From positions 1 to 36,949 of the forward strand of contig CANQXT010000008.1 in NCBI GenBank assembly GCA_947627915.1: 36,949 nt of DNA, read 5' to 3'. The position numbers were made by a program, and so were the translations under genes. A model generated the notes under the pieces. It searched no databases and was not told where the DNA came from. It saw nothing but the letters and a program-made list of their open reading frames with translations. Positions within the stretch are counted from its first letter, which is position 1; each line of letters starts with the position of its first letter. Shown in pieces: positions 10,121 through 15,442 of this stretch. The stretch comes from an uncultured Bacilli bacterium. Its GTDB lineage: Bacteria; Bacillota_I; Bacilli_A; RF39; UBA660.

Positions 10121-11581
10121 TTAATTAGTTGGAGAAAGGACGAGGCGAAACCCAAAGTAACTGTTAGCATCACCGGTGTCCCTACTGAAGTTGAACTGAC
10201 CCGCCAAGACACCATTGTCGCAACCGCCTCCTCGAACGAACCACGGGTTAGAAGAGTCAACGAAGTGCGAAGTGTCAGCGTACCAAGCGTTATGATAACG
10301 TTTATCAATACCATCTTTATCCCAATAGTAATAGAATGGTCCCATTTCTCCAGTTGCATCTCCTAAGATTCTTTTATTATATGATGTTACACTACTATCA
10401 CTTGGATATTTATCTATATAACCATCGCTTACCTCTTTTGCTAATTCTGAATCATTTGTAAAACCACTATCTTTAGGATTTCCGTCCATATAAGAAGCCA
10501 TATATTCGTGTGCTCCACCAGACATATCATATACACCACTTATATTTCCAGTTGTACTTGCTAAATATCCGGTTGGGGTATTATATGGTTGAGTTTTATC
10601 TGTTTCACTACTCTTACCAACTTCTCCTGTATAACTACTTTGATCTGTATTTGCTGCAGCGCTATATCCTGTTTTATATTCTGAATTATTATTTATTCTT
10701 ACTTCTGTTCCTATTCCATATTTCGAATGGGATAAATATGCTATTGCTCCCCATTCTGTATTCTTCATCATATGACTATCTAATGTTTGATTATATTTTT
10801 TTCCTGCTTCAAAGAATGTTTTTACATTTGCACCTCGCCATGATGTTTCATTTGGTTTTACTAATACATTATTTGCATTTCCTCCAGTTTCAAACTTTCC
10901 TACCCATATTCCACTTAGTTCTGTTTTTCCTAATGTAAATGCTGGATGAGTTAACCAATCTCCGTCTTTAGTTACACTAGTACTTTTTTGTGTATCTTTA
11001 CTTTCAAACACGATATTGATTAATCTTGCTTGTCCTAATGCTTGTGTTGTTGAATTACTATAATTTGTATTTGTTAAGGTAGTTCCATCTTTTGCTCCAT
11101 CTTCACTTGTTGCATGCCATACTTGATATTTATATCTTGGTATCCAGACAAAATATCCATTTATATCATTTTCATTTATTTTTTGTCCTACAGAATATGT
11201 CTCTTTTTTTCCTTCATTTAATATTACAGCATTAGCCCATCTTTTTTCACTATAGTTATACCATTCACTATGTTTATTTGCATAATACACATCTCCATTT
11301 GGTTTTATTTCAACTGGGATTAAATCTCCGGTTATTACTGGATCATTTCCGTTTAAATCTTCTTCTTTCCATTCATCTTTATGTAACCCACTTCTTTCAT
11401 ATAATTCATCTATGGCTTCTTGTACATTAGTTACTGTTTCGTGAGTTGCTTCATTATCATATGTTACTTCTTCACTATCTATCATTGTACTTTCGGCATA
11501 TACGATACTTACTGATATTATTACTATTCCTATTATTATTCCTATTAATATTTTATAATTATTTTTTATTATTTTCTTCAT
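10121..11581 (-). CDS. Exported/anchored protein with FGE-sulfatase-like (C-type lectin fold) domain and DGR-type variable C-terminus
   Basis: N-terminal TM; FVWIPRYKYQV, TEWGAIAYLSHSKYG, GVYDMSGGAHEYMASYM; C-terminal WFVRGGGCDNGVLAGQFNFSRDTGDANSYFGFRLVLS. Confidence 0.85.
   Translation of the reverse strand: MKKIIKNNYKILIGIIIGIVIISVSIVYAESTMIDSEEVTYDNEATHETVTNVQEAIDELYERSGLHKDEWKEEDLNGNDPVITGDLIPVEIKPNGDVYYANKHSEWYNYSEKRWANAVILNEGKKETYSVGQKINENDINGYFVWIPRYKYQVWHATSEDGAKDGTTLTNTNYSNSTTQALGQARLINIVFESKDTQKSTSVTKDGDWLTHPAFTLGKTELSGIWVGKFETGGNANNVLVKPNETSWRGANVKTFFEAGKKYNQTLDSHMMKNTEWGAIAYLSHSKYGIGTEVRINNNSEYKTGYSAAANTDQSSYTGEVGKSSETDKTQPYNTPTGYLASTTGNISGVYDMSGGAHEYMASYMDGNPKDSGFTNDSELAKEVSDGYIDKYPSDSSVTSYNKRILGDATGEMGPFYYYWDKDGIDKRYHNAWYADTSHFVDSSNPWFVRGGGCDNGVLAGQFNFSRDTGDANSYFGFRLVLSPTN
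10124..10300 (-). other. Candidate DGR variable region (VR)
   Basis: Abrupt rise in GC and switch to AAC/GAC/TAC/TTC/GTC codons within an AT-rich gene, over the lectin-fold C-terminus; IMH-like GC-rich end GGGTTTCGCCTCGTCC. Confidence 0.65.
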
Positions 11582-12108: not shown

Positions 12109-12135
12109 ATTATATAATACCCCCCCCGGTGTCAA
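12109..12135 (-). promoter_or_regulatory. Sigma-A-type promoter with G8 tract in the spacer (146-aa/486-aa operon)
   Basis: Coding strand TTGACA-CC-GGGGGGGG-TATTA-TATAAT; spacer 15 bp. Confidence 0.8.
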
Positions 12136-12144
12136 GTTTTCATT

Positions 12145-12173
12145 AAAAAAATGTTGTATAATCAACATTTTTT
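12145..12173 (-). terminator. Intrinsic terminator of the toxin-like mRNA
   Basis: AAAAAATGTTG-ATTATA-CAACATTTTTT + T. Confidence 0.65.
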
Positions 12174-12567: not shown

Positions 12568-13902
12568 TTAATTAACAAAAGTAATTTTAGCATAACCATT
12601 TCCTTCATTACCTGTCATATTACCATCACCACTATGAGTTGGCATTTGTGAGTTTCCTGCAATCATTTGTGTATCGGTAAAATATTTTCCACTATAATGG
12701 TATGAGCAATTTATATCTTTTGTTCCATCTGTACATCCAGCTTTTGGTTGAACATTTTCTTCAGTTGATTCTTTTTTTATGGCTACACAACCTTCGTGAC
12801 CTGAAATATATGATGAGCCTCCTGCACCAGAACTTACTCCATCGTCAATATAAGAACCTCCTCCGCCACCATAGTAACCTGAACCTCCGCCACCTCCATG
12901 ACCATTTTGAGAATCTCCTCCTTGACCGAATTTACCATCTGTTGGATCAGTTTCGGCATTATAATACGCACCTCTAATACCTCCAGAAATTTGGGTACCT
13001 CCAGTGGCTAATTGATGTTCTACGCTATTTTCATTTAAAATACCACTTCCTCCAATTAAACTTCCACCATAACCTCCTGTTACAGCATTATGAAAATTAG
13101 ATGTACCTCCTCCACCTGCTGCAACCATTATTCTGGATTTTAAACTTTCAAAATCATTCCAATTACCACTACTAGAAATATCTAATCTCACGTCTGTTGC
13201 TCCGCCACCACCGGCGGCTATTTGATAAGCATAACCTCCATAACCTCCACCATTATATCCACCGGCTGGACGAATTAAATATGTAACTGAAGAATAATCT
13301 TTTCCCATTTCACCAACGTAAATATATAATTTTTCATTTTTACTTAATTTTATTTTTCCACTTGTATACGCACCATTTCCACCTTTTATATATTCACCTA
13401 CTCTTTCATAGCCAGCTTCAGAAACTAAAGAATTACCATAATCATAATAAGCTCCTCCACCACTAGCTCCCCATAATTTTATTTTATAATTACCTTCTTT
13501 AGGTGCTTTAAATATTTGATAATTTCCTGTATATTCATATTCTCTATTTTCGGGTAAATAAAAATATAATGTACAATATGCTGTATTTTTACTGGTTAAA
13601 GTTAAACTATTATTACTTGAATTATATTTTATTATATTATTATCTAATTCACTTCCTTTTTCACTCATACATTTTGTATTACTTAGATCTAATACATAGC
13701 CATCACTAGGCCAACCATCTTCTTCATATTCAGTATATTCTCCGGTACTATTTTCATCCCAATATATAGCAAAAGTATTTTTATTTATTTTATTATCTTT
13801 TATATTTACTTCATTTAAGTTTTTATTTTCATTACTTTGATACATCATATATAAAGAAAATATTTCTATTATTACTAATACTCCTATAATTATCTTTTTC
13901 AT
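12568..13902 (-). CDS. Membrane-anchored Gly-rich protein, ALK/LTK glycine-rich-domain-like
   Basis: N-domain paralogous to the 146-aa protein; FKAPKEGNYKIKLWGASGGG, IAAGGGGATDVR, IMVAAGGGG, GGGGGSGYYGGGGG, GYAKITFVN end. Confidence 0.85.
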   Translation of the reverse strand: MKKIIIGVLVIIEIFSLYMMYQSNENKNLNEVNIKDNKINKNTFAIYWDENSTGEYTEYEEDGWPSDGYVLDLSNTKCMSEKGSELDNNIIKYNSSNNSLTLTSKNTAYCTLYFYLPENREYEYTGNYQIFKAPKEGNYKIKLWGASGGGAYYDYGNSLVSEAGYERVGEYIKGGNGAYTSGKIKLSKNEKLYIYVGEMGKDYSSVTYLIRPAGGYNGGGYGGYAYQIAAGGGGATDVRLDISSSGNWNDFESLKSRIMVAAGGGGTSNFHNAVTGGYGGSLIGGSGILNENSVEHQLATGGTQISGGIRGAYYNAETDPTDGKFGQGGDSQNGHGGGGGSGYYGGGGGSYIDDGVSSGAGGSSYISGHEGCVAIKKESTEENVQPKAGCTDGTKDINCSYHYSGKYFTDTQMIAGNSQMPTHSGDGNMTGNEGNGYAKITFVN

Positions 13903-13966: not shown

Positions 13967-13993
13967 ATTATATAATACCCCCCCCGGTGTCAA
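13967..13993 (-). promoter_or_regulatory. Sigma-A-type promoter with G8 tract in the spacer (444-aa gene)
   Basis: TTGACA-CC-GGGGGGGG-TATTA-TATAAT; spacer 15 bp; same design as 12109-12135. Confidence 0.8.
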
Positions 13994-14287: not shown

Positions 14288-15442
14288 CTAGACTAGTTTA
14301 AATATGACATAACATAAGAAGATAACTAAAAGTGTATAAACAATACCACCATTAATTTGTTCACTTTTACTACTTTTATATTTTACTCCCACTAACATAG
14401 TAGCTAAATAACCCCCAATTAAACCACCAATATGAGCAGCATTATCAATACCACTTATTGTAAAACCAAGAATTAAGTTTATAACAATAATTGGAATAAT
14501 TTGACTAGTTAGGGCATTGGATAAATATAAACGATAGTGATAACCAAAATATAATAATGAACCCATTAAACCAAAGATAGCACCACTAGCTCCTAAAGAT
14601 AAAGAATCTTTTAGAAAGACAACACTAAATAAACTTCCCATTAAAGCACTTAACAAATATATTATAGTAAACTTTGTTTTACCAATATAAGTTTCTACTT
14701 GATTACCAATAATCCATAAAGAATACATATTTACAAGTAAATGGAATATACCACCATGTAAGAAAGTATTAGTTAGAAGACGATATATTTCTAAATTTAA
14801 GAAACCTTGTTTACTATTACAAAATAAATATAAATATTCTGGTTTAAAAATAGTTATTAAATAACATATAACACATAATAAAATAATTATTTTAGTTACA
14901 ATTATTTTTTTGGGTTTAAATACTTCTTCATATTTATCATTTTCTTTTTCTGTTTTTTTATTTATATCTTCTGTCGCACTTATTATTTTCATAATATCAT
15001 TAGTTCTTTTTAAATGATCGGTTTTAATATTAGGAAAAGTTTCGGCTAAAATTTTATTCTTTTTTAAAGCACTTAAACTACTAATATTAATTGTTTCAAT
15101 ATTTTTATTATTATTATTTTGTAAATCAATTGAATCATTCATATCTAGACAAATATTTAAGACATTCATCTTTAAAGATAATGTTTTTCTTTTTATTTGT
15201 CTAACAACAAAACCTAATTTATACATATCCATATCTAATTGTTCATTATTATGAATATATTTAGAATTAATTCTAATTATTTTATAGGGAGCATTTAAAT
15301 TCTCAAGCCATATTTCATTTTTAGCTCCTCTAACATTGATTGGAGTATAATTTTCTTCAGTAACAAAGTAATGAACTAAACTCATTATTAATTCATCTTT
15401 AACATTTATTATACTACTATCCATAAAATTTTCTCCTTTCAT
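14288..15442 (-). CDS. Rhomboid family intramembrane serine protease with N-terminal cytosolic domain
   Basis: HLLVNMYSLWIIG, LGASGAIFGLMGSL (catalytic GxSG), AHIGGLIGGYLATM. Confidence 0.92.
   Translation of the reverse strand: MKGENFMDSSIINVKDELIMSLVHYFVTEENYTPINVRGAKNEIWLENLNAPYKIIRINSKYIHNNEQLDMDMYKLGFVVRQIKRKTLSLKMNVLNICLDMNDSIDLQNNNNKNIETINISSLSALKKNKILAETFPNIKTDHLKRTNDIMKIISATEDINKKTEKENDKYEEVFKPKKIIVTKIIILLCVICYLITIFKPEYLYLFCNSKQGFLNLEIYRLLTNTFLHGGIFHLLVNMYSLWIIGNQVETYIGKTKFTIIYLLSALMGSLFSVVFLKDSLSLGASGAIFGLMGSLLYFGYHYRLYLSNALTSQIIPIIVINLILGFTISGIDNAAHIGGLIGGYLATMLVGVKYKSSKSEQINGGIVYTLLVIFLCYVIFKLV

Follow-up and report, generated by a model that had tools for sequence, protein, structure and literature searches.

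The locus examined here raises the question whether eight consecutive guanines lying between two perfect promoter hexamers act as a switch for the operon behind them. It belongs to a stretch of 36,949 nucleotides (hereafter the window, meaning the whole stretch analysed), and the elements under discussion are collected in Table 1. The first-pass annotation had described perfect -35 and -10 hexamers, a G8 tract and a spacer of 15 bp, all of which proves exact on the minus strand. According to the mechanism proposed, replication slippage would add or remove guanines and so shift the two hexamers relative to each other; with G8 the 15-bp spacer would leave the promoter off or weak, and with G9 or G10 a spacer of 16–17 bp would turn it on. 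Both states are inferred, as is the weakness of the window promoter in the form sequenced. No read, strain or expression data are at hand, and we regard a slipped-strand phase-variation switch in the promoter spacer as the probable nature of the G8 tract.

Table 1. Elements of the window and of the retroelement cassette carried by the same assembly (G000)
Feature	Coordinates	Strand	Remarks
Poly-G promoter, TTGACA-CC-G8-TATTA-TATAAT	12109..12135	-	Spacer 15 bp; full letters TTGACACCGGGGGGGGTATTATATAAT
G8 tract on the non-template strand, proposed slippage site	12120..12127	-	
Hairpin AATGTTG-attata-CAACATT with T-run	12144..12169	-	Just upstream of -35; -7.3 kcal/mol
First operon gene, 146 aa	11603..12043	-	Leader MKKIIIGVLVIIEIFSLYMMYQ, common to the paralog family
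Second operon gene (P0001), 486 aa	10121..11581	-	Membrane-leader protein, target of the diversity-generating retroelement (DGR)
Variable repeat (VR) of P0001, 148 bp	10135..10282	-	Compared with the template repeat on contig C18
Second poly-G promoter of the window	13967..13993	-	Identical core; G8 at 13978-13985
444-aa protein behind the second promoter	12568..13902	-	Leader MKKIIIGVLVIIEIFSLYMMYQ
Complete DGR cassette (L212)	C18:16482-20830		
Reverse transcriptase (RT), RVT_1, 351 aa	C18:16482-17537		
Template repeat (TR)	C18:18481-18630		Written 18630-18481

The promoter is followed by the 146-aa gene and then by P0001. The hairpin preceding it is terminator-like and, judging from its sequence, may serve as an insulator of the intrinsic-terminator kind. 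The protein behind the second promoter matches the ALK/LTK glycine-rich domain (PF12810, E=4.8e-51), and the two G8 tracts of the window compare with 0.06 expected from shuffles. A gene for a rhomboid intramembrane protease (14288-15442, minus strand) is located directly upstream of this second locus; rhomboids are able to cut single-span membrane proteins, so that shedding of the neighbouring proteins is conceivable.

Both promoters of the window are members of a large class. The genome to which the window belongs (1.29 Mb in 90 contigs) contains 40 distinct tracts of at least eight guanines (46 overlapping matches), as against about 0.4 expected from the base composition of the window, and 39 of the 40 lie in promoters of the same type. 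The earlier remark that G runs are rare in this genome therefore holds outside these promoters only, the class itself amounting to about 40 copies. Searching with the pattern TTGAC-Gn-TATAAT recovered 38 sites, 37 with at least G8 and one with G7, whereas the reversed-pattern control gave none in the same genome; since the counts come from patterns that need the hexamers, diverged copies may escape. On contig C49 the contig end cuts the promoter after TTGACACC-G8, and on C78 the hexamers are weaker (TTGATT and TATAAA). The tract found inside a gene is a G9 on contig C33, at codons 17–19 of an EpsC/WcaB-like hexapeptide (polysaccharide) acetyltransferase-like gene (L055:1963-2514). Being part of the coding sequence, this tract would cause a frameshift on gain or loss of a single G, and its sequence makes it a likely site of translational phase variation in the classic contingency-gene arrangement. 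Each long G-run is thus placed where a change in length would be expected to alter expression. Moreover, terminator-like hairpins of -6 kcal/mol or better stand just upstream of 14 of the 38 copies, the window copy included, which suggests that the genes concerned are insulated.

Spacer lengths were calibrated on the TTGACA-N-TATAAT sites of the same genome that lack a G-run. In these ordinary promoters (n=42) the spacer measures 17 bp in 17 cases, 18 bp in 10 and 15 bp in a single one, whereas the poly-G promoters (n=38) have 15 bp in 30 cases, 16 bp in six, and 17 bp and 14 bp in one each; tract lengths of G7 to G10 correspond to spacers of 14–17 bp, that is, from non-optimal values up to the peak of the ordinary promoters. 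The same peak of 17 bp is found for the ordinary promoters of four relatives from other genera, among the matches listed. When the relatives are pooled with the window's genome, 17-bp spacers occur in 11 of 271 poly-G promoters vs. 75 of 163 ordinary ones (p ~1e-26), again among the matches listed, which for the relatives come mostly from the window's genus. Within these listed matches the relatives' poly-G spacers flank 17 bp, with 15–16 bp in the window's genus and 18–20 bp in several others. We infer from this pattern a population that is mostly off or low, one or two slippage steps from the optimum. The optimum of 17 bp is borrowed from other promoters, and a stiff G-tract may not obey it.

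Tract length varies between copies of the promoter whose flanks are unchanged. The sister species G009 has 25 copies with identical CC and TATTA flanks, positions that the search pattern had left free, and these divide into 12 with G8 and 13 with G9; the tracts of genome G014 comprise 14 of G8, 11 of G9 and one of G7 (both counts among the matches listed). On a tree of the 25 G009 loci the G8/G9 state takes 9 changes, where shuffled labels take 8.6; 5 length changes are already required by the well-supported branches taken by themselves. As the observed number is not below the shuffled one, tract length is not inherited in blocks. The longest tracts and the widest spread among the relatives' matches listed belong to G190 (contigs C4, C25, C35, C88 and C113), in which G11–G16 tracts abut TATAAT and the spacer reaches 18–23 bp. 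A genome scan for strains of the window's species returned genus-mates, uncultured Bacilli from rabbit-gut metagenomes, that do not belong to that species. Slippage in the living population is an inference, and so is the effect of tract length on transcription. The indirect tests nevertheless agree with the phase-variation reading put forward in the first-pass annotation, namely the ordinary peak at 17 bp vs. 15 bp here, the variation of length among paralogs with unchanged flanks, its scatter over the tree and the recurrence of the tract before surface genes. Loss of mismatch repair was considered as a cause of slippage and rejected, MutS being present in the genome; its presence counts against the slippage-switch reading.

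In the window's genome the poly-G promoters precede single-span or secreted, paralogous proteins with a membrane leader. The leader has a mean identity of 96% across residues 1–24, whereas the median identity of the same paralogs past residue 100 is 0.10. The domains found behind these promoters are of the ALK/LTK glycine-rich, laminin-G/ConA-like lectin and GLUG types, and in other genera poly-G promoters precede BspA-type LRR, lectin, SipW/TasA-like, camelysin/TasA-like, pilin-like and WXG100 genes. Surface or host-interaction genes are inferred from the leaders and domains, and exposure at the surface is itself inferred. With about 40 such promoters before paralogous, putatively surface-located membrane-leader proteins, a population would display many combinations.

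Poly-G promoters were found in 26 of the 38 genomes of the window's genus and, at the level of the family, in 65 of 291 genomes, distributed over 51 of the 150 genera; among the 341 genomes of a class-wide sample that fall outside the family, 4 have them. The family pattern asks for only five Gs, and some single matches are due to chance. Depending on the genus, the tract lies 0–7 bp from the -35 and 0–11 bp from the -10 hexamer and has different flanks (among the matches listed), which argues against one conserved operator. An inverted repeat of the window's species, TATAA-ttatc-TTATA, was considered as a fixed operator and dropped, as it is not conserved in sister species. Poly-C of at least seven residues at the promoter-spacer position was found in none of the 291 family genomes. 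If spacer length were all that counted, poly-C should serve as well; the identity of the base or common descent must therefore also play a part. It is undecided whether this G-only rule reflects common descent or a role of the non-template-strand Gs; the exclusive use of G, as opposed to C, on the coding strand could indicate that the tract does more than fix the length of the spacer.

The strand asymmetry (poly-C in none and poly-G in 65 of the 291 genomes) also speaks for a static element, namely a promoter type of a short-spacer regulon in which a trans-acting factor activates transcription by binding to the G-tract or twisting the DNA, and selection keeps the copies uniform. MerR-type factors are known to twist DNA at long-spacer promoters. 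The systematic departure of the spacers from 17 bp fits such an element, as does the fact that 28 of 33 same-flank copies in the window's genome are exactly G8, a uniformity that would not necessarily follow from a very fast switch but that assembler consensus and selection for the off state could produce. What a static element accommodates poorly is the variation between genera in the flanks and in the distance of the tract from both hexamers among the matches listed, the lack of conservation up- and downstream between sister species, and the split between eight and nine Gs within a species; we consider it unlikely. Alternatively, misassembly of a repeat whose flanks are identical might account for the length differences, the tract itself being a neutral relic of gene duplication. 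Many contigs do break off at this repeat (C15, C49, C29, C31, C56 and others), so that a short-read consensus over it is insecure and an error at any single locus cannot be excluded. A neutral G8 should, however, decay, and 40 persist where about 0.4 are expected; this explanation also has to face unrelated flanks in 51 of 150 genera, a position that is nearly always in a promoter spacer and a total length that avoids 17 bp, and we find it scarcely credible.

It can further be asked whether the tract only marks a shared segment, recombination between identical 5' regions being the process that moves ectodomains behind an active promoter. The combination of one leader with many ectodomains, together with the frequent occurrence of the copies in tandem pairs in the window's genome, would suit such exchange. 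Yet every copy has a complete promoter of its own and 14 of 38 have a hairpin upstream, so that no single expression site is apparent, and the avoidance of one spacer length is left unexplained; recombination as the main mechanism appears quite improbable to us. Slipped-strand switching remains the preferred reading.

The second operon gene of the window involves a further layer of variation. A complete cassette on contig C18 has, in this order, a poly-G promoter, the 146-aa gene, a P0001-like gene with VR, the TR, a MutS-domain-I protein, Avd and the RT. Its promoter, with G10 and a spacer of 17 bp, is the only poly-G promoter of that spacer length in the genome and provides the one instance of the prediction that ten Gs would yield 17 bp. 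Avd is recognized by NF033474 (E=1.2e-19, just below the curated cut-off) and by PF22296 (E=1e-15, above the cut-off). Comparison with the TR reveals differences at 13 of 148 positions of the window VR, 11 of them at a template A, and in the five closest VRs 63 of 68 differences fall on template adenines (p ~1e-34). Apart from two short matches, one being the TR and the other a gene start at a contig end, the genome contains 15 further P0001 copies or fragments, and the single TR and RT have 16 genes or fragments as targets genome-wide. The C18 cassette and its targets almost certainly constitute a DGR, whose active homing is inferred. The 5' end is intact in eight target operons (C2, C3, C8, C16, C18, C21, C38 and C63), each of which has a poly-G promoter about 525 bp ahead of the target gene; the remaining copies are second in a tandem or cut by contig ends. 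By copying one TR, the RT would rewrite adenines in the 3' VR of a switched gene in trans, and in these eight operons, the window's included, the gene under poly-G control is also a DGR target. As the cassette itself stands behind a poly-G promoter, mutagenesis would be phase-variable too.

With regard to a C-type-lectin fold, the criterion for a DGR target, P0001 gave no Pfam match and a profile match to PDB 5vf4 (E=1.6e-7) restricted to residues 211–361, and the AlphaFold model of the 486-aa protein is uninformative (pLDDT 30). Two more RVT_1 genes are present in the genome (C82:1496-2077 and C51:5851-6426), the one on C82 being 37% identical to the DGR RT across part of its length. In the family as a whole, no association was seen between DGR-type RTs and poly-G promoters (18 genomes with both vs. 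14.5 expected, p=0.24), and as they are independent at that level the coupling is claimed for the window's genome only. Titles and abstracts retrieved for DGR, phase variation and promoter, a partial coverage of the literature, contain no such coupling, and a search joining RF39 with phase variation found nothing. We lean only slightly towards a two-layer machine in which about 40 poly-G promoters select the protein and some 16 such proteins have their variable end altered by the DGR, both acting together in the living population.

Of the systems compared, vlp, maa2 and vmm of mycoplasmas are the nearest in lineage; the tract of vlp is poly-A and its gene family is small, in contrast to the poly-G and the dozens of paralogs with diverse ectodomains found here. 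In Mycoplasma hyorhinis vlp, M. arthritidis maa2 and M. mycoides vmm, indels in the -35/-10 spacer switch surface-protein genes, whereas for Mycoplasma vpma a T-tract located upstream of the promoter has been shown to have no switching effect (PMC2268961), so that a tract alone proves nothing. Neisseria meningitidis porA and Treponema pallidum tp0126 have poly-G between the hexamers and are transcribed best at 17 nt (PMC7864442). They resemble the present case in the spacer poly-G and in encoding surface proteins but concern one or a few genes of a Gram-negative bacterium or a spirochaete, compared with about 40 near-identical promoters in an uncultured gut lineage of Bacilli; nor is a DGR link described for them (PMC7864442), as found in the window's genome. 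At the T. pallidum tprE/G/J promoters poly-G length varies in vivo and affects transcription (PMC7864442), which is permitted at eight or fewer Gs, whereas the window G8 is predicted to be weak; at tprL the transcription start lies just after the tract, whereas the window tract sits between the hexamers. DGRs with remote targets are known, e.g. in Treponema denticola (PMC4891356), and share with the present one the TR, the adenine-biased VR differences, Avd, the RT and targets far from the core locus; promoters are unmentioned in that paper, whereas here the intact-5' target operons are all behind a poly-G promoter. A MutS-domain accessory protein (MSL, PF01624) has been reported for DGRs (PMC10053308), as in the C18 cassette. 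Thus, the present case differs from the known spacer switches in its base-and-strand rule, copy number, lineage and DGR link.

Until now, phase variation by promoter spacers has been known from only a few genes of pathogens; in the present case it would be genome-wide and in uncultured gut bacteria, with poly-G promoters in about one third of the sampled genera of one bacterial family. If slippage and the DGR are indeed joined, one engine would pick the active gene and the other the sequence of that gene. A large share of a tiny genome would then be devoted to surface variability, which would bear on the way commensals deal with phages, IgA and their neighbours.
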